Part shown: piece by piece, positions 334 to 63,413 of the stretch | Layout: the number at the start of each line of letters is the position of its first letter | Numbering within the stretch: the stretch's first letter is position 1 | Source of the DNA: Liolophura sinensis | Lineage: Eukaryota > Mollusca > Polyplacophora > Chitonida > Chitonidae | Length of the DNA: 64,000 nt | Direction: 5' to 3' | Assembly (NCBI RefSeq): GCF_032854445.1 | Contig: NC_088301.1 | Coordinates: 39,171,187 to 39,235,186, forward strand | The notes under the pieces: generated by a model | The model's database searches: none | What the model was told of the DNA's origin: nothing | The model's input: only the letters and a program-made list of their open reading frames with translations | Position numbers and translations under genes: made by a program

Positions 334-339
334 TTTATT
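334..339 (-). terminator. Polyadenylation signal of selU
   Basis: The minus strand reads AATAAA about 36 nt beyond the selU stop codon, a normal place for a poly(A) signal of a gene with a short 3' UTR. Confidence 0.6.
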
Positions 340-374: not shown

Positions 375-1884
375 TTACACAATCCTCTTTACCAAATCTG
401 ATAGCGTGCCAGGAGTCAGGTCGGGAATCAATAATTCTTCCACAGAGTTATCACAGGACCTGCTGAGCATCTTTTTCTGACTATGGGAGTAAGCTTTATC
501 ATAATGCTCTGTCAGTATGTCCTTCACAAAGTCTTCCCACTGCTCCTTTCTCACAAGCTCACACCAATGTTCAATTTTCTTATCTCTGTGAAACTTTTTA
601 AGGTTGGTTATGCATGTAATAGTATCCTCTTTCTGGACAGTCCAGAACCTGTACTCTGATATGATATGATGAATTCTTTTATCCAATGGTAGTATGATAA
701 CATACTTCCTACTATTACAACACATGGCTTTAAACATCTCCTCGGGTATAAAACACCTGCCAATACCTCGACCCTCTGATTCCACCCACACTGGGCGGCT
801 AACGTCAAAACTTGACAGCCTATCTCTTAGGAGAGACTCCCAGTACTTTTGTGAGGGTTGGCATACACCAGGTTCTAAACCTAACACTGATCCCCTGTGG
901 TTGGCTAGTGCTTCCAGATCCAATACCTGTTCTCCATGCTGATGCAACGTGTGAAGCAACAAAGTTTTCCCAGATCCAGTGAGCCCTGTGAATAAATTAT
1001 ACACATGTAGTCACAATTATTGTTTCCTTCATACCTCACCCAAAGTCTATATTCTGTAAGGCTTAATATAAAAGGGATGTAATGACCAACCCAACTAAAT
1101 CACTTACCATCAGGGCATCTTTAAGTCTAGCAATGTCCATTAGTTCAACCCAACACTGACACTGAACTTATTCAGTATAAAGAGAAAGAGATTTTTAAAA
1201 TACATGTATTCAGCATAAATCATTAATATTTTTTCCATCAGACAAATTGTCTCAATCGCCACAATGTTTACCATGTAATACTCTGTTTAGAATTTAAATT
1301 TAGGTGCAGTGATTTATTTATTTTGCATTAAAGAAAGATGTATACTGACCTGATATAACATTAAAATTAAACCCTTTAGGGAGCTCTTTCAATTGTTCCT
1401 GAACCAGCTTCCTGTAATTCTTGTAGCCACCCTTCAAGACTGAAACTTTGAAGCCAATTTGAGATAGGACTAAAGCCAAGCTCAATGACCGCTGGCCACC
1501 TCTAAAGCAATAGATTAATGGATGGTAATCACTTTCTTTATCAATGAAGTGACTGGAGAGAAATCCACTGATATTTTTAGATATAATTTCTGCTCCCAGT
1601 TTCCTCGCCCTGAACTGATTGCATTTATATAGGCAGCCGACTTCATGATGTTCAGACTGTCTTAAAACAGGCAGGTTGACTGCCTTGGGAATATGATCCA
1701 CCTCAAATTCATTTGGTGTTCTGACATCTATAATCTCAGAAGCTTCTACACCAAATGGACTATCGCAGTACAAAGGCATGCCTCTCTTTTCATCCGGGAT
1801 CGCGTAATGCCTCTTCTGTGCCAATAGAAGTACTGGTCTCTGCACACACATGCAAAGACCACAACGGCTCAAACTGAACATCAT
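375..1884 (-). CDS. selU: tRNA 2-selenouridine synthase (SelU/MnmH-like), two exons
   Basis: SelU replaces the 2-thio sulfur of the tRNA wobble uridine (Lys, Glu, Gln tRNAs in bacteria) with selenium from selenophosphate, through a geranylated intermediate. Exons on the minus strand are 1350-1884 and 375-985; the GT-AG intron joins in phase and completes the P-loop. The product is 381 aa, close to the bacterial length of about 360. Residues 50-165 form a rhodanese domain opening with DVRTPNEF; the catalytic Cys is C126 in YCFRGGQRS. The Walker A motif GLTGSGKT lies at residues 179-186 and begins the C-terminal P-loop domain. The first 40 or so residues are an extension beyond bacterial proteins, rich in Arg and hydrophobic residues with no acidic residue before about 31; RHYA near residue 25 resembles a mitochondrial cleavage site, so matrix import is inferred. 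The first ATG of the open frame was taken as start. The intron and flanking SINEs argue against bacterial contamination. Confidence 0.92.
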
Positions 1885-6503: not shown

Positions 6504-9500
6504 CTATCCTGTAAATGCCTGCAGTCCGGTAATGGCCCGTCCCAATATCAAGGCGTGGATATCATGTGTACCTGGTTAATAACAAATGTAACTTTTATAT
6601 ATATATTTATATCATATGATGGTACCCAATCAACTAGCAGGAAGATAAAGTATTAAACAGTTCCAATATAATAACATAGTGTGTGAGATTAAATCTGGGA
6701 TTAAATATACTTCCTAATGGGTATCAAAATATATAGTATCCATACTTCTGGGCCATGTGGTAATTGTACAATTGTCTCCCTTGACCAGAGAGGCAAATGA
6801 ATTTCATTTCAATTCAAGGCAAAATGACTAACCTTCATATGTGTTGACAGCTTCTAAATTCATGACATGTCGGATGATATGGTACTCATCAGATATTCCA
6901 TTCCCTCCTAACATGTCCCTGGCCACTCGAGCAATGTCCAAGGATTTGCCACAAGAGTTACGCTTGATCATTGATATCATTTCTGGAGATGCTCTGAAAT
7001 AAAATCCAGGGTGTTTATCTATAAATCTTTATTATCTATAAATCTTTATTTTCTCTTATGAATCAAGAGCTAAGAGTACATTGTTGTAAGTTGAAATGGG
7101 GCCATAATATAAAACATTCATGTAACTCGTACCTGAGCTGTTGATCTGTTCAAGACATTAAATTACAAATTTCAAACATACTGAAAAAGGACAAATATAA
7201 ATAAATGCTCTTTAAATTAGATTCTTTTACATATACAATGGCATATGAAATAGGTTAATGTAGACAGATGTTAGGTTAGCAAAGATCCCATTCAACAGGA
7301 CAACAATTGGTAGTGATACAAACCATGTTTTTGTAGAAATTTTATCTTTTACATTTCTGGTATAAAGTTCAACTTCATACCTTCCTTCATCTTTTAAACG
7401 GCCAACCTGAATACAGGACTGAAGGCCTAGAGAAATTTCAGTCAGCATGTCTGCCATTTTCTTTTGCATAAGCTGGTTGTTGGCCAAAGGACGGTTGAAT
7501 TGTTTTCTGCAAAACCAAAGTGATAACTTAAGCGTGTGTGTAATGGAGCAGCACCTTATTATTAATGAAGTACATGTACTTATATCCACTATTTACTTAT
7601 TTATTTATTTCTATGAAAGATGTTCAATGCCAGACTGAAGAATAACTCACCCATATTACAGCAGTCAGCATTATGGTGAAAGGAAACCAGACAAATGTAA
7701 ATGTAGACTTCTTGCAGGCAGACCTTCTCATGTACAGCCGTAGAGGAAGCCAGCATCAGTTGGACTTGAACTCACAGCAACTGCTCTGTTGAGAGGGTTC
7801 TAGATCATTGCGCCTCGCTGGCACGCCGATTCCCTCGGCCACAGAGGCCTCCTCACTTTGAATAGTCAACACTACTATGAAGTATTGGGTTTAGAAACAT
7901 TGTTTAAACAATGATTTGCACAATATTGGCATATTGTTTTCAGTCTGTTTGTCATTCGTGTTACACTGATGCACATCACTGCATGATTGCCTTTGTCAAA
8001 CTCAATTAAGATCATAATAATTTCATTTCACATTTTACGGGCGAGCCAACACTAAAAATCATCCTTTTCCGATCTTAATGTTTATTGATGATATTCCTGT
8101 TTTCCAATCAAGTAAGTATGTAAAAAAAATAAAAAGTATTTTTTAGTTTTGTATTAATTTTTATATCTTCCTCAGACATTGAAAAAAAGATTCATTCTGC
8201 TCGTAACATAAAAAAGTTAAACTTGTGTGACCTATCTGCTATCTGGGACTTGTCTTGCCCAGATGTCATAACAACATGTCAAATGCATGGTGATAGATAT
8301 CTTTTCCATATGAAGCCAAGGGAGTTACACTAGGCACATGTGTATGTACACAAGACAGCTTGGTGAGATGTGCCTCAACTGCTAGACAAGATCACTCCTG
8401 ATACTGCATACTATGGGAGAACCTGACTGTTTCATGTCCAATCTGGAGTAACCTGGCATAATCCAGCCATCTGAAAAGGCAAATCCTAAAAACTACTTGC
8501 TGGCCCAAATTTTCAACTTTCCCCATCCTTTTCCTTATAATATGCATAACAATGACACTCACCGATCCAGAGTGTACTGTCTTGCCTGTTCCAAACAAAA
8601 TTCGGCAGCTCCAAGAGTACCCCAGGCAATGCCATATCGAGCATTATTCAAACATCCAAATGGGCCCTTCAACAAAATCACAGCATTATTCAAATATCCA
8701 AATGCACCTTTCAACAAAATCACAGCATTATTCAAACATCCAAATGAGCCATTCAACAAAATCACAGCATTATTCAAACATCCAAATGAGCTCTTCAACA
8801 AAATCACAGCATTATTTTAAGATTTAGCTTTAGATTCCTTGACTTAGTTTGATGTGGCCAGATTTCTGACTTAACCAGTGGTTAACAAACACTTTCAATT
8901 ATATGCAGGCAACAGTAAAATATAAAATGAAATGTACAGAAATATGATCCTGTGCAAGCCTGAGAAAGACAATGTCCTGCACCAAATATTATTTTGACAG
9001 GTTTACCTGTTCATGACAGGACAAAACTGCCAGGTAAATAAAATTGTAACTTTCAATAATGTAAATAGCTGGAAGATTTGGTATTATGTCCTGCACAAAT
9101 TTAAAAAATTATTTCAAGGTTTGATGTGTTAAAATATCTCCTCTTCCACTCTACATTCATATGCTCTGTTCTCCTTAATTTTCTTGGACACTATAATAAC
9201 ACTGCTTATACAACCTTTGTGAACTTACAGCTAAACCGGAGACTCCAGGTAACAAATTGTCTTCGGGCACTTCTACATCCTCCATGACTATCTGCCCTGT
9301 GATACTAGCCCTCAAAGAAAACTTTCCCTCAATCTTTGGTGTAGACAAACCAGCCATTCCCTTCTCCAATATAAAGCCCTTAATTTTGTGGTCATGGGCT
9401 TCACTTTTACCCCACACCACAAAAACATCCGCTATGGGTGAGTTTGTGATCCTGCCATAGACATAAACACAAAACCAGTTATACAGTCGGAAATTCACAT

Positions 9501-12500
9501 AGGTCAACATTTGTAATAACAATATGTCTACGACATCTTGACACTGTCAAACAATGATTAAAAGTAATGGGTATTTGTATTAATAATGTGCAATTTTACT
9601 GGAATTGGAAGACTGATAATCTGGAAAGATTTTGAAAAAGAAACAATGATGACAGACATCAAATATAGGATACTAAAAAGTTTATACACAATGTATTATG
9701 ACTTTTATTTTTATCAAAACTGAAAACATACATGTTCATTTATTCACCTTCATTACTAATGCATGGGTTAACATAAAAGATTTACATCTCACCAGGATTT
9801 TGCACCATTTAGTGTGTAAGTTTTACTGGAAGGATTATATCTTGCTTTGGTTTCCATGGAAGATGGATCACTACCATGGTTAGGCTCTGTTAATCCAAAA
9901 CAGCCTATCAGTTCTCCACGGGCTGAAACACAGATCAAACAAATAATGAACATTTCACAAGCTTTGAATTTATCAGCAGAATGTATGTTCTACATCAATC
10001 TTTAAATGGTAAACTTGCCATTAGTCAACAATGCAGACTGTGCTCAACACACTGATGGAATACATGTGGCCTAAATGAACATTAGGCTGTGCAAGCGTCC
10101 TTGATCAATTATTGCATTGCATACAATCAGTTAGAGCAGCACTAGTAAGTTACTGTACTTTACACACAGACACTACATGGAGGAGAAAGCTAATGAAAAT
10201 TGTTTTACCAATACTACTCAAGTTCGTGACCTGCATATATCTTACCTAACTTTGGTAGGTACTTTTCTTTCTGAGCATCTGTTCCATAAGTATTGATCGG
10301 ATGCATCACTAGAGAAGATTGTACGCTCATGGCAGACCTATAACTACTGTCCACTCTAAAACATATAAAGGCTTGCGAAATAAGACTTGCTTGCTCATCT
10401 CCAAGCATAAAAGGTTTCCCTATCAACAAAAATCAAAGCACTGGGCAAGATTAAAATGCTAATAATTACAATACCAGTAAAAACATTTTCAATGTCATTT
10501 CAGGCCTCAGGAACCATCACTGCAGACACTTAACATGTAAACATCAATTTCACTAGAAAACTCACCTTTCTACCTCTCTTGTGATGAGCCCATAAGCTAC
10601 AGAGGACACACCTGCACATCCATACCCGCTGATAGTGGGACCTAACACACCCAACTCACCCATCTCAGGAACTATCTCTGGATCAAAAACTGGAACACAA
10701 ATTCAAATATAATTACCTGTATTTGAAACAATACCAAAGACTTTAAAACATATTACATCAATGGGACTATGTAAAATCATAGCATACACTATGTAAAATC
10801 CTGTTCCATTCCAGACATTGCATACATGTACATATATTAATTTATCCTCATCACTATTTTAGTCTCGACAATTTACACAGTTAAACAGGGATACTGGAGA
10901 GTCTAACTTTTAAGCCACTTTTACAATGGAAGATATATAAAGATTATTTTGCCCAGACTGGAGTACCCATGCAAGCTGCTCATTCCTCAATACTATAATT
11001 CTCAGACAGCCATGTTAGGAGCTCCAGTTAGATCAACAAAGTATTGCTCTAAATCTAAACTGCATTACAAAGTTCAATTTGGGTATAAAATATGTTGGAT
11101 TTCTTTTTTCTAACAGTAATATCTTATGAATAGATAATGGTAACGTGTCCAAACAAAGATATTCATTTCATTACACAACATTGCCAAAATATGCATGTTT
11201 TGTTATTAAATGTCCCTTATGAATAATTTGATTACTGGTTAATAAGTTGCGTTTAGTTGACATAAACTCTCTTAAAACCTCACCTTCATTTCTGTTGGCC
11301 AGTAAGATCCTGGGCATTAGCTTCTCTTGACAATATGCTCTGATCTGATCTCTGACAATGATCTCCTCTTCTGTCAACTGACTTTCCAGATTGAAGGCAT
11401 CTCTCCAGTCAAATTTTGCTACAAGAATACAGGACATACAGAGACATTATCCCGAATAACAAAAAAGGTATAATTAAGTATGTACTTTCCAGAATTATAT
11501 TACATTATTTATTGACATAAAGAGGCATGTAATAATGTTACGCTTCAATTCTTATTTTATACAAGACATTCGCATACTTGTGTCTTCGATTTACCATTGG
11601 AGTGATTGCAGAGATACTGTAAACAGATTTCAAGAGAAACTAAAGTATCATATTTTAATCAGGTCCAACATAGCTAAAACTAAACACTCTGTTTAAAAAA
11701 TGTGTACAAAATATAACTGTCCTGTGAAAAGACTGTCTATCAGAGAATTTTTCCTCCCAAAGTTTTGATCTGCTCGGTTTCCTCCCACCATAATGTTGGT
11801 CACCATCATATAAGTGAAACATTCTTGAGTATGGCATAAAAAACCAATCAAATAAATAATAAATAAATCAAAGTTTTGAATGCCAGTTTCACCCATGGTC
11901 TCTAAGAATTAGTTTCAATGTGCTGATTAAGAGGTCCTTACTACCAATGGAGGTAAGAGAATCAATCTCCTGGGAATAGAGTAACTCAATGTGTTTAATA
12001 TGTTGCTCCAAAGCAATCAGGCTTAAGCCAAAATTTTAATCATTAAATTTGGTATGTTCCTTTTCATTATTTTAGCAGAAATTTGTTCTGCAATAACTTA
12101 CCCAGAATTTATGCTGCTGAGCTGTAATTTGACCTTGTTACAGCAGAAATAACAATTTTAAAGTGATTTGAAATTTTGACTTAAGTTTATGATCACTTCA
12201 TGATCCTGGAGCCTGCTGTTAAATACTGTAAGATCACATCCATTCCTTCCATAATTTGTGTACAGTCAAAGTAATGTTCAAAATGTAAGATGAAACCTAC
12301 CATAAATTTGAGATTTACTGCGATTTTCCTCTCCACCAAGAGCTTTAGCTGAACTTTTGTCAAAGAAATACTTGAATGTATACCTTTCATAACTCAAAGT
12401 TGTTATGAAAATGCTTTTGTGTTTCAATAAAATTAATAATTAGTGACTGTATAATCATATAGCTACACTGTTCAACCACTGTTCACTTAATATAGGAATG

Positions 12501-42602: not shown

Positions 42603-43785
42603 ATGGCGTCGTCTGTGGCTCGGCGATTTTCCTGGCGTCAAGTTCAAAGCTTTCGACCAAAAATGCCAGACAAATTGAAAGGGGGTCGGTTGGAGAGAAT
42701 CGGTAGGGATGTAATGCGAATACTTTATTAATTATATTTATTAATAATTTATTTCTCTTACGCTTGGATTTATGGTCTCGGGTTATCTTGTGACGATCGG
42801 CAATATCGATCATTCGACCATCAGTGATTATTTCGTGGTAAAATATAGGAGACTACAACATACAGTATAAAACCAGAGTGGTAACGAGATTGTGATAGTT
42901 GACGAATTTTAATACACCAGTGAAATCAAGCCCCTTGTCAGTTTACTTCAATTAAGGTTTCATTCTAACTGTTCATCATCATGTTCACAAACGCTGTAAA
43001 CATGCTGTTGGTCATTACTGCATTTTTAGCTCACCTGTACAAAGTACAGCAGGAGCTTATATCATAACCTGAAAGGTAGCATCATCATCAAATAACAGAT
43101 AATGCAATAAGTATGGTTTGTTGGATCTGAAAGAAAAGCAGGATTCAGTCAATACCAAGATTACTTATGTATTGTTGACCTGAAGGTGGTGATCAGGTGA
43201 AACCATGTACTGATTTAGTACTTGCATGTTTGATTTTGCATGTCTTGCTTGCGATAATAATGTCATGTTGATGTTGCAGGTCAGTACATTCTGATGGTTT
43301 TGTCTGACTACAAATCTGTGGCTGTGGAGACTGTGCAGGACATGAAGGACAAACCCGTGAAGGCATCCATATATCTTACTGGTATTGCTACCATAGGACT
43401 GTTTTTAAAGACTAATCCAGATGAACAGAGCTACAAAATCAAACTGAAAAGTGCTGCTAATGATTTACTTTTGGTGAGTGACATGGTGAGAAATCCCAAA
43501 TCTGATCACTTTGTACAGAAACTCAGCTGGGCATACAAAGATGGTAAACTGAAATACCAGACATTTGGTGTGTTCTCTGTGATGTGGCTGGACTCGTTTC
43601 CCTCCAGACTGAATCTATTTGAAGCAAAATGCTCCCACCTTAAAACTCCATGGTATCAATTCCACCAGAATGTCGTGGATATAGGTTATCTTGGGAAGTG
43701 GAGAGTGATTGACAAGGAGATGGTAGACTATGATGTCAAACCTTCAGAATGGGAATCTGAAGGACAAGTTGCTGAAACCACATGA
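42603..43785 (+). CDS. TIMM29: Mitochondrial import inner membrane translocase subunit Tim29, two exons
   Basis: Tim29 is a metazoan part of the TIM22 complex, which inserts carrier proteins into the mitochondrial inner membrane. Exons 42603-42702 and 43280-43785 (donor ATCG|GTAGGG, acceptor TGTTGCAG) join in phase to 201 aa. The N terminus is Arg/Lys-rich and lacks acidic residues early (MASSVARRFSWRQVQSFRPK), as expected of a presequence. A hydrophobic segment follows at about residues 60-76 (SIYLTGIATIGLFLK). Family landmarks are the spaced motif around NPKSDHFVQKLSW, the KLKYQTFGVFSVMW segment and VVDIGYLGKWRVIDKEMVDYD. It is shorter than human TIMM29 (260 aa), lacking most of the charged C-terminal tail. 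Assignment rests on motif order, since this family diverges fast. Confidence 0.88.
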
Positions 43786-50000: not shown

Positions 50001-53000
50001 ATTTTATTGTGGGTTGTATAGGCCCACATGAAACGTAAGTCCACGGGGGTACTATACATCTGATCAAATTCCATTACAAACGAACATTTTATAGATTTGT
50101 TTTATATTAAGAGTAAAGACAGCAAGCATATCACATTATTATTTAGGTTAAACGGAGTGAGAATATCGATTCGGAGCAATAAAGTTGAGTTTAATGAGGG
50201 AGGGGCGCATTCTATATACATGTATATAGAACGCTGGCGAACGCTTCACTATCAAATTTTGATTTCCAGAATGTCCGTAGCGAAACTTGGTGAAGTCCTT
50301 ATTAATGCAGACTCCCTCATATTTCGGTAAGCTTTTGAGAGTTTGGCGGCTTCTGATGAATTCCATCCTCTTCCTATACGAAACGATTTCTTCCAGTGGC
50401 ATTCAATATGACAAAGAATGTAAACTCTTGGGCTAGTCGACAGGCCGCAAGATCTGTTGTTTCATCTGATAATAGAGTGAGGCCTTATACAAAACTCTTT
50501 CGTCGGCTATATTCCTTGGATTTATCATGCAATAAAGCATTTTGGCTCTGTAACTGCTTAGTGTCATTTAGATTTTCCTGAAGCTTAGTGTTCCGCGTCG
50601 TGACAGATGTATTCAGTTTGTTTATCTCCCCACTTGAACCACGATAATTTTGTCTTTCTCTGCGATTTGATTCTCAAGGGTATTTAGTTTACTTACTAGT
50701 GCTGTAATGTGTTGTATAGTACCACTGAGGGCCTCCATTGCCGATTGGATTGCCTTGCCAACTGCTTGTTGCATAATACTATTCAGGTGGCTTTGGATCA
50801 AAGTTGTGAGCGAGCTCTCTGTAAAAGGGTTGTGCCTAGGTCTCAGGTGCAGTAAGGGCAGGCAAAGAGTTAATAAACGGTTGACCTGAGTAGTCGCCAT
50901 TTTCCGTTTAGAAGCACCTCGTGCTATTGCCATGCAAATGAAACTTGTACAGTCTGTTGAAATGGTACATCGTTGACTTACTAAAGATACCTCGCATGTG
51001 ACTTCTACGCTAGAATCTTGTATAGTAGAGGGCTGGGATAAACTCGCCTCTTATACATGTACGTTACCCTTGGTAGCCCCGCTCAACAACCACCTGTTCA
51101 TACTGAAATTTTTAAATATTTCAGCCACAAATCCACATAAAATATCAATGCCTAAATGCTTGAAAATTTAGTGAAGTACTTGTTCACAATTCATAGGCAT
51201 GTGTATCAAAATCTGGTACGATCAGCAGTCAAGTAATATGGAAATCCAGATGTAGTTCAGAGATCACAGCATTCAACTCCCACCTGAAGGTCGGTCAAAG
51301 CCATTATTGTAATTGCTTGTTCTAATAAGAGGCATATAAATGCACATAAAAACAAAATTGCTGCCGGTATCTGATTTTTGAATATAGGTCCAAACTGGTC
51401 GTTGGAATCCAGCTGGAATTTTAAATACATATAGGCTAGTATCGTAGAAGTGGTATCAGAAACCAAAAAGCACTTGGCCGTTGAGGTCACAGGTTCGAAT
51501 CCACCTCCTGATAGTTCGGCATACAGATTAACATGATATCTGTATGTTTAAGAACTTGTTTCTGGAGAAAAACCCAATAACAATTCTGTTTTTTAAGTTT
51601 GGTTTTATATAGACGCAATAGTGGTGTGGTTTAAGTCCTGGCCTTATTATAGACAGACAATTTGTTCGTGGGGCCTCGGTGACAATATTATAAACTGTAT
51701 ATATGGAGCACATGGAACCGTTTAAGTAGTCCTACATTCGTTGTAAACAATTTGTTTATAGCTTGCAAGTCTGTAAGTCACACGTTAATAGCTCTTAACC
51801 AACTGATCAAACGTTAGACATATATTTACCCCTACCGGTTGCTCCCTCCCCTCCCGTTCTTAAAACTGACTGCAGTCGTATCGGGGAAACATTCTGAAGT
51901 AAGATTATAACAAGGCCTGCTAACAAAAGAGGTGTGAATATGTAAATCAGCGATTATGCAAACGGTTTTGCAAGCTACTGATATAATTTCATCGACTACT
52001 GGTTGGCAAACGAAGCCGCTAAAAGATTTACCTGACCGGATCATCGACTCCTTTGATATGCATGCTCAACAATGTAACCATAAACTTTATGTAAAGCTAC
52101 AGCTATGTAAAGCTATACTTACCCTGCAACATCCGTGCTAAGGCGAGTCAAAGAATTATTGTAGAAGACATATGGCATGGCAAATTCTGGAGACGTCCAA
52201 TTTTTCACTTCACGAAATAACATTGCGGACGTCATGTTTAAAGGCTCTAGTATGTGTTTGTGCAGCAAATTGCCGTAGGTGTCCCCACCCATCTTTTCGG
52301 CAACACACCCTAATAACATGTACATTGCGTTACTGTAAATAAACTTGGTCCGCAACTGTGTCGTTGGTTCCCTTGGTGATTTATAAGGCTCCAAGTATCG
52401 CATTCTCCTAAAACCATCAAATGAAGAAGCGGAATTTAATTCAAATGAAATATATAGGTATCGATATTGATACATTACTGATGTTTTTGAAAAGTCTATG
52501 GATAATTCAAAATTAGTAATATAAAGATTAGGAGAATATTGCTTACACTTGGTGCAAATGCGTAATTTTTACAACTTCACTTGCAGAACAGTCCTGAAAT
52601 TATTGAAGCCTCACCCTCGATTAATCCTGGTTGCTATGTACTCTTCAATACATACCCGTGTGACAAACGGGGAAAGTGTGGTACCTATATTTGAGCAATT
52701 CATGGGTTTATTCTGTCATTTTGTTTCATTGCCTAAATTGTAAGTTTAAGCGCGTGTCTATTTCATGCTTGAAATGTAACAGGAAACAAACATATGTTCA
52801 CATCTTACTGTGTTGTTCATTGTATATTTCATCGATGTTTAACCCAAAGATACATTACCTACAGTAATCCATATCGGTGTGTGAGGAGTCCAGTCCGGCT
52901 ATCGTGGGCAATATGTACGAGTACAAACCCATCTTGTGTGCAGCAAGATCTCGCAACGTAGCAGATCTAGTCCTCTCATCGTCTGCAAAACGGAAGTCAC

Positions 53001-53809
53001 CTCCCATGATGTCCCGCACCGGCGTGTCCCAAGAATATCTGTTTGGCGAGAAACATTACATTGGTGAAAATCTGAAATTATACAGTATGTGCCATGTGTT
53101 ATACGGGTTCTGTATATTGAAATGAACACATGAGTAAACGAAAACATTAATAGACAATTTGGATATGGTCACAGGTGAAGTTGATTCACTTTTGCTTCAT
53201 TCAGGATTTGGACAGATAAACGTTGCAAGCTGCATTGTCATGAAAAGCCAAATTTTATGATCAAATTTTGAACGTGCTTTTCAGACGACTAGTAATGTAT
53301 GTAAGCATATACAATAAAGATGCAATGTCTCCATTATGTATCTCTTTTGCGAACAGGCCTTTGAGGGAAAATTTGTTTCTCCCGAGTGACTTCTTTGAAC
53401 ACCACGAGCACCCTGAACAAATACGCCTGTGCTAATTATGGGATGTTATCTAATGTTTAATTACCACTTACTGTCCCTTGGAGTCTGTGAGCAGGCTTGC
53501 AAGTAAGGTAATTGTAAAAGCTTTTGTCACGGAGCCGACAGCAAACCTGGTGTCGCTGTCTGCAGTCACGTTTTTCTCGAGGTCAGCCAGTCCATACCCA
53601 CGGGCGTAGATGTCTCCCGGTTCCGATCCCCCCACCACGGCCATCGACATTGCAGGCACATTCCGACATTCTAGTACCTGCTGGACGAAGCTGTCGATTC
53701 TTTCACGTGTTTGTTTGTCCAATGCCGTAGAGACCTGGATGACGCAAACAACAATTATAACATATATACACATGTAGTTAGTACCCTTTGATCTTGTACC
53801 CGATGTCAT
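45111..53809 (-). CDS. Secreted beta-lactamase-fold serine hydrolase, five exons
   Basis: Member of the class C beta-lactamase / penicillin-binding-protein-like family, called LACTB-like or gigasin-6-like in bivalves. Exons in coding order: 53472-53809, 52859-53038, 52123-52407, 46234-46478, 45111-45889; phases agree and the product is 608 aa. A signal peptide is likely (hydrophobic residues 13-30, CIYVIIVVCVIQVSTA). All three class C active-site motifs are present: S93-V-T-K96 (nucleophile and Lys), Y197-S-N199, and H356-N-G358 in the position of KTG. Further family blocks: YSWDTPVRDIMGGDFRF, MLLGCVAEKMGG, ASGEDMVKWIRYHLG and YSMGWMTGMYRG. A C-terminal domain (QYGHPLFGNVTIS) follows a Pro-rich linker. 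The last 20 residues are hydrophobic after small polar residues, suggesting a GPI anchor or membrane tail. The substrate is unknown. The stop codon overlaps an AATAAA signal. Its 5.6-kb intron 3 holds a LINE. Confidence 0.87.
46953..47004. repeat. (AT)26 microsatellite
   Basis: An uninterrupted 52-bp AT dinucleotide run at the 3' edge of the LINE remains. It causes a spurious open frame with alternating Ile and Tyr. Confidence 0.97.
47020..50940 (-). mobile_element. Decayed non-LTR retrotransposon (LINE) with ORF1, endonuclease and RT remains
   Basis: Lies in hydrolase intron 3, same strand. From its 5' end: 50622-50933 encodes a coiled-coil-like stretch (SKLNTLENQIAEKDKIIVVQ) and 50148-50402 a basic stretch (RSRQTLKSLPKYEG), together resembling a LINE ORF1. 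48295-48801 encodes an APE-type endonuclease start (SLSIVQLNVPGLTEKLDSLF, DIITITES) and the typical ICVLYRPPN. 47360-47480 reads GVIPQASILGPLLLLLYIND, a reverse transcriptase block; the expected FADD motif is replaced by SYMA, and WSDKWLVSFNTSKNKALIMS follows near 47200. Stops and frameshifts separate the pieces, so the element is dead. A MITE at 48924 splits it. The clade resembles CR1/Jockey but was not resolved. Confidence 0.8.
48924..49356. mobile_element. MITE copy inside the LINE (partner of 28785-29360)
   Basis: Starts with AAAGGAGAAGAAAACTT, the same terminus as the copy in the FARSA intron, and stays alignable to GGCATGCACC near 49356, where similarity ends before the right terminal repeat. 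Because it interrupts the LINE it inserted later. The right end was deleted or diverged. Confidence 0.8.
51440..51515 (+). repeat. tRNA-like sequence with perfect B box
   Basis: GGTTCGAATCC at 51492-51502 is a perfect polymerase III B box, preceded by CACTTGGCCGTTGAGGTCAC. No convincing acceptor stem or anticodon loop could be drawn, so this is more likely a SINE head or pseudo-tRNA than a working gene. Confidence 0.35.
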
Positions 53810-56800
53810 TTTTGTCCTTAGCTATGACAGGACTACGAATTTAAATCTTGCTTTATGTCCGTGTCACGTGCAAGTTATTTCGAAATACAGGAGAGGATTG
53901 CGCACTCTTGGTCAATTTCCTGTGAAGACTTGTGATTCACGAGACGATCACCGCAGACTGACCTTAAATCACAGGCTTTCTGTCATTCAGTACTGCCGGA
54001 TGGCAGCCTGTGAAGCATTGAAGTCTCTGCATATCCCGAAACACATTTTAATGCTGTGCATATGCTTGTTAATGTTGACCTAAAATGATTGTATGCACAT
54101 TTGATTTAGGTCCGGAAAACTTGAACCAAGCATAATGACCGACTCACTAGAGAAGTATAAATGGTGCAGCGAGTCATCCAGGGCGGACTTAATTCGCCCC
54201 ATTTTGATACGAGCATGTCAATAAACATGGGTCAGATACCAGGGGTACATCAAGTGTTTACTCACTTACAGGTGTAGATGGACGGAACATGTATAATAGC
54301 TAGTACGGCCTACACTTTATTCTCGTTTATTCAAATAACAAATATACATGAACTGGGTCACTGTGAAAGGTCACCTGTGAGAAAAACGAATGGGAAAGCA
54401 ATGGAATGTTTTTCTTAATCTGAATAAGTAATCATGACAATAGACTTCCAAAAGTTTGTCACTTTCCACAAACAAACCAAATATCTGTTCTATAACATGG
54501 TTGAAGACAGATTGTTTGGAAGGGTTAGCTGTTATGCATAAATGCATGGCACCTGTGTTGTCCATGTATTTGAATGGGCACAAATTTTGCGTTGCATCAA
54601 TTTTAATTGATTTTACCTTCGCATAGTAATTTTTAGAGTCACTCGGTCATTTACAACTTCATTGCTGCAAGCAGTTAGCTTTAGCTGATGGACTTTAACT
54701 ACAGAATATGCATAGTATAAATTCGCGTTCGTTTTGCAATGAAATTCCCTAATCGCATTCAATAACAGAGGTGTGAAAACGGTAGCATGGCAAATGAGGT
54801 ATGAAGGTATATGTGTGTTATCTGAATGTGAACTCATAAAACATAAAGCGGTACGTATGCCGCATATCCGCATGCTTGATTTAGACAATTAACCTGGATT
54901 TATTAATGTTGTATATTGTAAGCTCTCACAAACAACTTCCACACACCAATATTAACAAGTGCTAGTTTCTTATATTCGTCCAGGAGGCATATCTTCTTAA
55001 CCTGCCTAGATATAATTAGTATTTTAACCCTTCTTTATATTTACACAATATACATGCCATACACACATATCAATCATTTGAAATTGAACTTTGGACAGCT
55101 AGTCATAAGACCAGTGTCAAGTGGTCACAGTGTGGTATTCAGTAAAGTGACTAAGATGTTTGCCACAATAACTTCACACTGGCTATACTCTCTCCGCGAC
55201 AGACCGTATAACCTAGCCGTTATACATCAGTAGCTCGGTCAGGAAACCCCTGATCAATGCTTGCTACCGCGAGGTTAACCCAGCTTTCGTTGTGTACGTT
55301 TCTGAACAGCACCTGACCTTAGAAGATCTACTGTTTTCTCTTCTTAACTTTTATGTTTCGCGAGAATATCTTTTTTGGAAACTGATATAATTAAAGCACG
55401 AGTGTTCATGTAACGATCCGACTGTTAGAGCACCCGAACGTCTTGTGCTCTAAGGAACAGTATTCAACATAAATTCCCATAATCTGTAGGAACAGCATGA
55501 TGAGCACTAGAAGAGCTGCATATTTTTGTAGTGACAACGAATTAAGCGCCAATGAGATATGTAGTAATAATTTAGAGCTGTGATTCATCGCAAACTACGA
55601 GTTGTTTACATTATTGCATCTTCTCTAGGGTTGTACCTACCTGTATTTAACCTATAATGTTTCATATATACAGGTAGGCTGAAAACATCCGTTTGCTTGA
55701 AACATATGAAAGACAGTAATCATAATTAAGTGGACGTTTTGACTTTATTTGTTATAGATCTCAATATGTAAAATTTATCTGCAATAAAAGGAATGTTTCT
55801 ACAGAACTGAACCCCCATTGGTCCACGAATATTCAAGTATCCAGAATTTTTACCTTCAATTTGATGAATATTTTAAAGTACAGATAAATTGAATCGCTCA
55901 ACTACTGCATGGAATGTTCAAAATGCTTTTTGTTGTATTATATACCATAGGCGCACTCAAGGGGGACAACTCTTTCTCATTTCACCTCAGCTCTAACTTG
56001 GCTCATATTAATTCAGATCAGCAGATCTGAATACGGACAGAATGAGTTATGAACAGAGCACGTCTTGATGATGTCTTTCTACCGAATAACATTGAACTTA
56101 TATTTTCATAATGTATCAACATTTAAATATTTTGGATTAAATTAATTGATATCAGGAAATGGCAATGGTCATCTCCCACTTGAGTTACTCCCCCTGGATG
56201 ACCCATTGGATTACTGCCCCTGGCCGCTACGTTTATCTGAGACCTCTTCATCACTCCAAGAAGTCTCACTCTCAAATTCGTTAGGAAGTATTAAGGGTTA
56301 CGGTTAAAGATGCCATGAACTCCTTAGAAGGCAGCAGCTTTAATAAAACATAGAACAGTTATAGAGAACCTCAACAGACTCGAGCAACCCGGCAGAGACG
56401 TGCATGTGGGACCTGCGCGTTGATCGTGTTCTATTCGTTGTTCTTGAAATGCCTATGCCGGTGGCACGTATGTTAGTGCACATATCAGATGACCGGACCG
56501 GACAGTGCCTGTGTTCAATAGGCCTCGGGTCCACTTTTTCACATATTTACGACGCGGGACGAGAGATGAGACCAGTTACTGCTTGGTGGCAAGTCGAAGG
56601 CATTTCAAACACATATATGGATGCAATACGCGGCTGTTAATACATCTGAACTTGTCAAAAGAGGCGCGAATATTCTCCAAATGTACGTTGCTTTCCAGTA
56701 CCGCTCTGGGTTTCTCTGCTATGTTACCTCACAATTTGTGTTTTATAGACGTTGGTAACATTGGAAGCGTGGAAGTGGAGAGAGAAAGGGTACCAAAACA

Positions 56801-61278: not shown

Positions 61279-63413
61279 TCAAAAGAGAGACACTTGTAGG
61301 ACCAGTAATGTGAACATTATTCCCACCCTTTGTGTTAAACTTTGAACTGAGTTAGGCAGATCCCATCTGACACTGCGTTGATATTCCAGTTGGTCTTCCT
61401 GAACTTGAAGTGCCGTGAATTGACCATCTTGAATTTTTTCAAAGTAGAAGGTTATATTTTTGTCAGGAAACATCTTGTGCATGTAGCTAAGAGGACCTCG
61501 GAATTTTAGCAGAAACATGTCTTCTTTACCGGCATTTTGCAACATGCCACTGCCTACTACGCCCGTTTTGTAGGTCAAAGCATCTTCCATCGAGTCGTAA
61601 GAAATGGTAATATTCCCAAATGTCTGATGGCCGTAGGTACCAAGATATGCTGTTTCCCATTGTGGCTGCTTTGGGGCAGGGGTAGTTGTTGTAGTCCTTG
61701 TCGGAATAGAAGCGGTCGGTCGGCGTGGTTGGGAAAACATGGGACCAGGAACAAGAATTCCTTCGTGAGCAAATGGATATTCGTGCATGCAAGCATTTTC
61801 CGGAGAGAAAAACAAAGGTGGCCGTTGTATAAGGAGAAGATCAGAAATGTGCCATGTGATAATGTCCGTCGTCATGGTGTCTATTTTGGAAGATCCGCTG
61901 TTCATGCTGATGAAAATACCGAGGCTGATATCTCTGAAAACTACCACCTTCGATGTAAATCCAGAAAGTTTTCCACTTTGTTGAATGAACCGATAACCTG
62001 TTAAAGTAGACGAGAAAAACGTATGTACTTTGCAAAACAATTTAGAACTGAGTGGGGTGTACAGCATTTTAGCATTGGATGGGATTTTTTTCTAAAACTT
62101 CATATATTTAACGAAAGGTTATTATTGTTCACCCTTGAAAGTTGCAAAAAAATCACAAGAGGAATGTCTGGATTACAACTTGCAATGTATCGATATTCAT
62201 AATAGCATCATTGTCAAGATAACAGCCTGCTTTGTCAGCGTGTACATGCATGAGATAGTTTGCCAATTCAAATAAGCAAAATTCATAATATTGAGAATAG
62301 AGCTAATGAAATGCAAGCCACTCAGAATGAATAGTCTGAGTATTAGAATGTTAATCACCTAATAACTTTTCAGCTTGTACCTAGAATGCTCTTTCATTTA
62401 AGTAGGAAACGCAGGAGCAGTATCAAATATGTATGATTTAAAAGCTTCCAAATTTAGAAACCTTAAATATTACGAAAAGAGACACAATGTAGATTGAGCA
62501 TAGCGTACTTCTGTACTGCCCCGACTCCCAACCGAGGTTATGGGCGAAGACGACCTGTTTGACCCGTGACTGAGGTTCGAACTCTGTCATCTTGCTTAGT
62601 TTGTATTGAACCTGAGGAAGGTATGTTTGCTCGAGAACCTGGCCTTCCTGTATCTGGGACATGTTCGCTACATGCAGGAGGTGGTAGTGCAGCCATTTGA
62701 CCATGTCCTCTGCTGTTGACACCACTCCTTCGGCAGCCTCATTGGGATATATAGCTCTGTCGAAAACAACGAACCCATGCTTACATCCGCATTAATCTCG
62801 CAACAGATATAACTAAACTATTACCTAAACAGAACGAACTAGTATAGGGTTATAACTTTTATCAAATGAATGTCATATTGTGTTATATATCGGCTTACCA
62901 ATCTGAAAACTTATTAACGCATCTATTTTAAATGAGATATTTGTGGCCAGACCTGAGGCCATTCTAAAATTTAACCAAAATTAATTCGAGCTCCCTTCTC
63001 TTTGAGATGGGGGCATGTTTAAATACCGTATCCTCAAAGAGTATATTACATCCAATACACACACAAAACAATTCTAAGCATGTCATAACTGTTTGCAAAA
63101 TCTCCCCATCCCGGACATGGTGTGTTGTATTAGCAATAGTCTCAGCTTAACTGATTTTTACCTGAGTAGGCTTGAATCCAGAGGCAGAAAGGAGCCATTA
63201 TTGTAAACATGAGGAACAGCAAGATTGTCTGTGGCGTTGACAAAGGACGATGACGTCATCTGTAGAGGATTAAACAAATACGAGGTGACCAGCTCCTCCA
63301 AAGATGTTCCACCTCCAAGGACTTCCGCAACGCAGCCTAGCAACGTGAACATTTCTTTAGAGAAATGAAAATCCCCTCGAAATTCGTATTTTGGCTTCAG
63401 CAAGAAGTAACGA
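61279..63413 (-). CDS. Second beta-lactamase-fold protein, active-site residues lost, 5' part outside window
   Basis: Paralogue of the gene at 45111-53809. Exons 63162-63413, 62509-62756 and 61279-61997 match its last three exons with the same intron phases (2, 2, 1), giving 405 residues to the stop; the N-terminal exons, including the SxxK region, lie beyond 64000. Aligned blocks: FTLLGCVAEVLGGGT with MLLGCVAEKMGG, STAEDMVKWLHYHLL with ASGEDMVKWIRYHL, and NLGWESGQYRS with SMGWMTGMYRG. The YSN motif is FSK here, and HNG is QSG, so the Tyr, the Asn and the His of the class C site are all replaced. A Thr/Pro-rich linker (PTRTTTTTPAPKQP), likely O-glycosylated, precedes the C-terminal domain (TYGHQTFGNITIS). 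The C terminus is hydrophobic (GIMFTLLVLQVSLF), suggesting membrane or GPI attachment. It is probably a non-catalytic, perhaps binding or structural, protein. Confidence 0.85.

Follow-up and report, generated by a model that had tools for sequence, protein, structure and literature searches.

A nuclear, intron-bearing gene for a tRNA 2-selenouridine synthase in the chiton Liolophura sinensis

The chiton Liolophura sinensis carries an intron-bearing nuclear gene for a full tRNA 2-selenouridine synthase (SelU), a family that is mainly bacterial. Both the residence of the gene in the animal genome and its membership of the SelU family are well supported. From the sequence we judge, on balance, that this selU descends anciently from a bacterial gene and encodes a working synthase whose likeliest substrates are mitochondrial tRNAs. 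Catalysis by the protein is predicted with good confidence, and we infer that the gene is expressed.

The selU gene and its product

The gene lies on the minus strand of the window, by which we mean the whole 64,000-nucleotide stretch of DNA that was analyzed, bases 39171187-39235186 of scaffold G000:C7. Its parts and two catalytic motifs are as follows, in window coordinates.

1350..1884, minus strand: selU exon 1, leader and rhodanese domain, 535 nt, ending after the first base of codon 179
986..1349, minus strand: selU intron, 364 nt, GTCAGT...TTCACAG, with GT-AG ends, phase 1
375..985, minus strand: selU exon 2, P-loop domain and stop codon, 611 nt including the stop
334..339, minus strand: AATAAA, candidate poly(A) signal, 35 nt past the selU stop (counted by hand)
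1507..1509, minus strand: codon of Cys126, the rhodanese active-site cysteine, placed by alignment with E. coli and bacterial sequences
963..985 plus 1350, minus strand: Walker A motif GLTGSGKT, residues 179-186, with the G179 codon split (read from the sequence, counted by hand)

Spliced in silico, the two exons form a reading frame of 381 amino acids with no internal stop, and its first ATG is preceded by an in-frame TAG and two further codons (AGA AGG). The GC content is 0.415 in exon 1, 0.310 in the intron, and 0.430 in exon 2. Farther 5' of the first ATG, at about 1955-1970 on the minus strand, a pyrimidine-rich tract with a terminal CAG could be the 3' splice site of a 5' untranslated exon. 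Across the chiton genome (609,464,459 bases in 632 contigs), matches to the SelU profile consist of these two exons alone, neither of which exceeds the cut-off singly. We thus count one copy, located 39 Mb into a scaffold of 60,359,117 bases. The intron and this deep position make contamination very hard to hold, and together with the open spliced frame they rule out a bacterial contaminant. PF02590, the sole bacterial control family, had no match in the chiton assembly and matched 8 of 14 control genomes, which makes it a weak control in which a missing match does not equal absence.

An earlier, sequence-only reading had proposed that the full SelU is encoded by an animal gene that a spliceosomal intron interrupts, and the family scores, the open spliced frame, and the scaffold position bear this out. 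The same reading placed the intron exactly at the domain border, a point that needs correction. The intron interrupts codon 179, the first Gly of the Walker A motif, after its first base (position 1350) and directly after FNVIS, and the border lies a few residues upstream. By comparison with P-loop proteins, we take FNVIS, which precedes the Walker A loop, to be part of the C-terminal domain. Position 7 of the archaeal C-terminal SelU model aligns to chiton residue 178, so that the natural domain split falls upstream of the intron and the intron itself just inside the P-loop domain.

Among ten frames scanned, the nearest recognized neighbor of selU is a pair of acyl-CoA dehydrogenase-like exons at 7227-9546 on the minus strand, with PF00441 just above and PF02770 just below the Pfam cut-off. 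A gene for Tim29, a subunit of the mitochondrial inner membrane translocase, lies at 43261-43785 on the plus strand (Pfam, 181 bits). Beta-lactamase-like PF00144 matches stand above the Pfam cut-off at 52119-52568 and 53468-53821 and below it at 62438-62791, and a DUF3471-like stretch at 61279-62091 is likewise below cut-off, all on the minus strand; the frames at 52119-53821 and 61279-62791 perhaps form a small gene family.

The chiton protein scores above the curated cut-off of each of three NCBIfam models for the tRNA 2-selenouridine(34) synthase MnmH (NF008752, 379.1 bits against 266; TIGR03167, 323.8 against 219.75; NF008750, 301.5 against 241), which excludes a chance match. Two models of the same name, presumably for other subgroups, are below cut-off (NF008751, 163.9 against 361; NF008749, 113.6 against 548 bits). 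Pfam reports a Rhodanese domain at residues 50-158 (45.1 bits) as the sole domain, and the Pfam search of chiton SelU listed no P-loop domain. As the earlier reading had stated, Cys126 and the Walker A motif are intact: CFRGGQRS, whose cysteine aligns with the E. coli loop CARGGQRS, and GLTGSGKT are both present.

We compared the protein with 85 bacterial rows and defined a near-invariant column as one in which at least 95% of these rows share one residue. Chiton SelU retains 47 of the 51 columns that qualify, and the lowest bacterial rows retain 42, 43, and 46. The residues kept include D53, R55, C126, R128, G129, G130, R132, S133, and H339-Y340-D341, as well as G179, T181, G182, and K185 of the Walker A motif; the four altered positions are R79H, W127F, F227W, and S250G.

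The spliced chain does not correspond to one contiguous translation, and AlphaFold models were therefore built for each exon piece separately, with 31 alignment rows each. The exon 2 piece (residues 180-381) has a mean pLDDT of 93.0 and the exon 1 piece (residues 1-178) one of 87.6, with blocks of 85-98 over residues 31-170. The best structural match of the exon 1 model is 3g5j (E 1.4e-9), the N-terminal domain of a putative ATP/GTP-binding protein, which is also the sole clear relative in a PDB sequence search (rhodanese half only, E 1.9e-19). The exon 2 model found weak P-loop kinase matches in the PDB, led by the P-loop nucleotide-binding hCINAP (E 0.016), and no structural match there at an E value of 0.001 or better.

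Chiton and E. coli SelU thus share a rhodanese and a P-loop domain in one chain, the active-site cysteine, and the Walker A motif, features common to the bacterial proteins for which the three passed models stand. However, the chiton protein is 29% identical to that of E. coli and carries W127F and S250G, and it is encoded by a nuclear gene with an intron and has an N terminus that is longer by about 30-40 residues. The split archaeal SelU (TIGR04568 and TIGR04569) comprises the same two domains, but in two genes rather than one chain, and the chiton protein scores 70.9 against 200 and 48.9 against 180 bits with these models. Judged by its sequence, the protein appears to be an ordinary SelU in an extraordinary place.

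Bacterial relatives and ancestry

The 85 bacterial rows comprise five plasmid loci and the best 80 of the 592 relatives among 594 listed stretches of GTDB genomes, a sampling that is not exhaustive, with the plasmid loci taken from 39 plasmid records with a match. Within this set, the highest identity to chiton SelU is 47%, in Nostocales HT-58-2, and the nine best BLAST rows (44-47%) belong to seven cyanobacteria and two alphaproteobacteria. With no row above 47% identity, the gene is unlikely to have been transferred recently. Nesting inside a single bacterial genus, which the sequence-only reading had named as the sign of a recent transfer, is also absent from the tree.

A phylogeny of 47 rows was constructed from the chiton row and 46 of the 85 bacterial rows; four plasmid rows with long branches were left out, as were 35 further rows, of which 29 are Betaproteobacteria and 6 are unclassed Pseudomonadota. 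In this tree the chiton row pairs with L040, a SAR116 genome, with support of 97/97, as it does in a quick tree of 86 rows. The nine-row group of chiton, L040, and seven cyanobacteria has support of 92/78 and is drawn open, and the cyanobacteria alone have 50/66. When L040 is removed, the chiton row joins the seven cyanobacteria (96/88). BLAST and the trees therefore agree that the nearest relatives are cyanobacterial and SAR116 proteins (L044, L033, L040, and others; seven cyanobacterial rows at 44-47% and L040 at 44%, with the GTDB rows being the best 80 of 592).

We evaluated alternative placements by topology tests on groups that were chosen partly after the tree was seen. A tree that groups the chiton with the core alphaproteobacteria is worse by 23.7 log units (p-AU 0.028), and descent from the mitochondrial endosymbiont through that group is accordingly disfavored. 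Placing the chiton outside the cyanobacteria, L040, and L034 gives a p value of 0.033. A grouping of the chiton with the cyanobacteria to the exclusion of L040 is not rejected (p 0.0996), and we did not retain the SAR116 genome L040 as the sister group. The chiton and L040 rows both have an odd letter make-up, which renders their pairing uncertain, and the chiton row has a long branch of its own. Given this make-up and the alternative that was not rejected, we claim only the wider group. Our reading is an old acquisition from the cyanobacterial or marine alphaproteobacterial branch of SelU, which may have occurred directly or via an algal or other eukaryotic intermediate; the age of the transfer to the chiton is likewise something that we infer.

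In the SAR116 stretch (L040:1-3889), selU immediately follows an Ndh-SelD fusion gene and is itself followed by an integrase-like gene, which may hint at mobility; both of these neighbors were named by eye. In contrast, the chiton selenophosphate synthetase (SPS) genes are separate from selU, about 13 Mb away on the same scaffold. The best selD match lay in a long open frame of 697-797 amino acids in all four bacterial genomes searched. A viral scan with the single protein confirmed relatives in none of six stretches, and a scan with an alignment found that 3 of 19 matched stretches (IMG/VR contigs L113, L114, and L115) encode a SelU relative at 34-42% identity. These viral proteins, which are in none of the trees, are more distant from chiton SelU than the cyanobacterial ones.

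Selenophosphate synthetases and other partner genes

Eight exon matches to SPS/SelD form two clusters at 52.01-52.04 Mb on the selU scaffold; none is over the cut-off singly, and three cross a stop codon. They belong to two head-to-head SPS genes (G000:C7:52014353-52037884; L017, L018, L019, and L027). The minus-strand gene is of the Sec type, its catalytic codon being an in-frame TGA (LKG-U-GCKLP), and the plus-strand gene is of the Cys type (LKG-C-GCKVP). The catalytic exons came to light when the sequence lying between the two genes was read. An exact pattern search of the chiton genome missed the SPS locus, with all of its 11 matches lying elsewhere, because the pattern demanded a Val following GCK, a position occupied by Leu in the Sec copy, together with a TGA, in place of which the other copy has Cys. 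All seven pieces expected of an SPS protein are present in the Cys-type gene, and one internal exon of the Sec-type gene lies outside the stretches read.

Over five exon pieces (256 codons, with the last exon left out), the pair has a dN of 0.093 and a dS of 0.80, and the compared pieces contain no stop besides the catalytic TGA. The low dN relative to dS and the lack of extra stops make both copies look constrained. The last exon (63 codons) is 98.4% identical in DNA between the copies, suggesting gene conversion. Rfam listed no SECIS element for the Sec-type gene in the stretches given; by eye, a candidate SECIS-like hairpin is visible about 306 nt past its stop. A 2015 survey of SPS genes, in its accessible text, confines metazoan SPS-Cys to nematodes (PMC4561486). 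The chiton Cys-type gene is therefore an exception to that statement and departs from the published picture of animal SPS genes.

Genes for the 2-thiouridine background of SelU are also matched. The chiton genome has four exon matches to trmU/MTU1, one of them crossing a TGA, and eight to mnmG/MTO1, two of them crossing stops. The thiolation model TIGR00269 had no match in the chiton genome, where a missing match does not equal absence. Of the 32 tRNA-Sec matches listed, five exceed the Rfam gathering score, and two of these five reach 79-80 bits. On the mitochondrial contig of 15,209 nt, ARAGORN predicts 26 tRNA genes, some surely false, including tRNA-Lys(ttt), tRNA-Glu(ttc), and tRNA-Gln(ttg), all with U34. 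The order of the mitochondrial tRNAs agrees with what we take to be the ancestral mollusc order common to chitons and octopus. This contig (C632) has one COX1 copy, and contig C99 has at least seven, about one per 15.5 kb, like a tandem mitochondrial genome, which is either an assembly artifact or a concatemer.

Leader, substrates, and significance

Two features of the N terminus bear on where the protein acts.

1804..1884, minus strand: candidate mitochondrial presequence, residues 1-27, ending R-H-Y before A28, proposed from charge, motif, and low pLDDT
1777..1779, minus strand: Met36, a candidate internal start read from the sequence

Chiton SelU has 52 residues before D53. The equivalent Asp is preceded by 11, 20, and 21 residues (counted by hand) in three plasmid genes with annotated starts, and by a median of 20 (range 8-194) in the 85 bacterial rows, a median that is biased by starts picked by script near the expected place. 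These distances suggest the extension of about 30-40 residues mentioned above.

The earlier reading regarded the extra N terminus as a probable mitochondrial presequence, and the evidence is divided. In its favor, residues 1-27 contain four basic and no acidic residues, are modeled as disordered (pLDDT 51-54 over residues 1-30, low confidence), and end in R25-H-Y-A28, which we take to be an R-3 type processing motif (R-x-[FYL]-[AS]). As a background we used the 384 open, ATG-started frames of 36 residues in the window. In 23 of these frames the first 27 positions include four or more basic residues and none that is acidic; adding the motif, which was picked after the leader had been seen, leaves two, both being the selU leader, started at one or the other of its two successive Met codons. 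Against it, no amphipathic helix was found in the leader: the helical moment of its best 18-residue stretch within residues 1-27 is low, at 0.15, a value at least equaled by 367 of the 384 frames (over residues 1-35 it is 0.25). The exon 1 model likewise places no helix of four residues N-terminal to residue 57, in a part where the model is of low confidence. Met36 offers a further alternative, as a start there could give a leaderless protein of about bacterial length and a cytosolic form. We regard mitochondrial targeting as plausible and lean slightly toward it, at little better than even odds.

In the mechanism that we favor, SelU would bind tRNA with 2-thiouridine at position 34, as in bacteria; the P-loop domain would activate the sulfur, by geranylation in E. 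coli; and the rhodanese cysteine would exchange the sulfur for selenium taken from selenophosphate. The presequence features of the leader would make mitochondrial tRNA-Lys, tRNA-Glu, and tRNA-Gln thiolated by MTU1 the likeliest substrates, with thiolated cytosolic tRNAs as the alternative.

That alternative, an active SelU in the cytosol or nucleus that starts at Met36 or has a nonfunctional leader and acts on tRNAs with a thiolated wobble position, is possible though somewhat unlikely. The in-frame Met36 and the low helical moment fit it, and animal selenoprotein synthesis leads one to expect selenophosphate in the cytosol. However, the first ATG has an A at -3, the R-x-Y-A motif stands in a basic, acid-free leader, and the lack of a TIGR00269 match, for what such a missing match is worth, also counts against it. 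Quite improbable, in our judgment, is a protein that keeps the SelU fold for another main role, such as geranylation of thiolated tRNA alone or sulfur transfer, with little selenation. W127F and S250G, both at near-invariant positions, would suit such a role, and E. coli SelU also geranylates, according to the accessible parts of PMC12177912 and PMC9105526. This reading nonetheless has to contend with an intact catalytic Cys, RGGQRS loop, and Walker A motif, with 47 of 51 columns kept, and with selenophosphate synthetases encoded in the same genome. That selU, being of a mainly bacterial family, is a contaminant, a recent insertion, or a decaying copy is barely credible in view of its GT-AG intron, open spliced frame, place deep in a 60 Mb scaffold, conserved motifs, long own branch, and identity of at most 47% to the 85 bacterial rows (the GTDB part being the best 80 of 592).

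The favored mitochondrial reading could be extended to a second selenium pathway, which we consider unlikely as a whole. The bacterial-origin nuclear SelU would selenate mitochondrial tRNAs for Lys, Glu, and Gln at their wobble uridine, and a dedicated Cys-type SPS, duplicated beside the Sec-type gene, would feed it and so avoid competition with selenoprotein synthesis. The link between SelU and the Cys-type SPS is speculation.

Some automated invertebrate annotations may bear the name tRNA 2-selenouridine synthase. If so, the gene is known to databases, though perhaps not discussed; a literature search by title and the start of the abstract, mostly outside subscription journals, found no paper on a molluscan SelU. 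In its available text, the SPS survey uses ybbB to mark the selenouridine trait of prokaryotes (PMC4561486). The earlier reading held that 2-selenouridine is not an established animal modification, which is fair but needs qualifying: what is accessible of PMC7216251 reports claims of selenium-containing tRNA in mouse leukemia cells (1984), bovine liver cells, and plants, and a review assigns mnm5se2U to eukaryotes in its accessible part (PMC7694415). The former source also says that mammalian orthologs of YbbB were identified, for which it cites a bovine study of 1999, and the enzyme gene is not given in that portion (PMC7216251). Adjacent sentences in an excerpt of a selenium-gene review name mnmH among bacterial and vertebrate genes (PMC10215577), which we do not take as evidence. 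The same chemistry has thus been claimed in eukaryotes, an agreed animal enzyme gene for selenium tRNA is not named in the accessible text (PMC7216251), and in the chiton a gene is in hand.

An intact animal SelU, together with selenophosphate and 2-thiouridine machinery matched in one genome, makes tRNA selenation in animals directly testable in a single accessible species. If it is confirmed, animals would use selenium in RNA besides protein, and if SelU is mitochondrial, selenium status could affect how Lys, Glu, and Gln codons are decoded in mitochondria.
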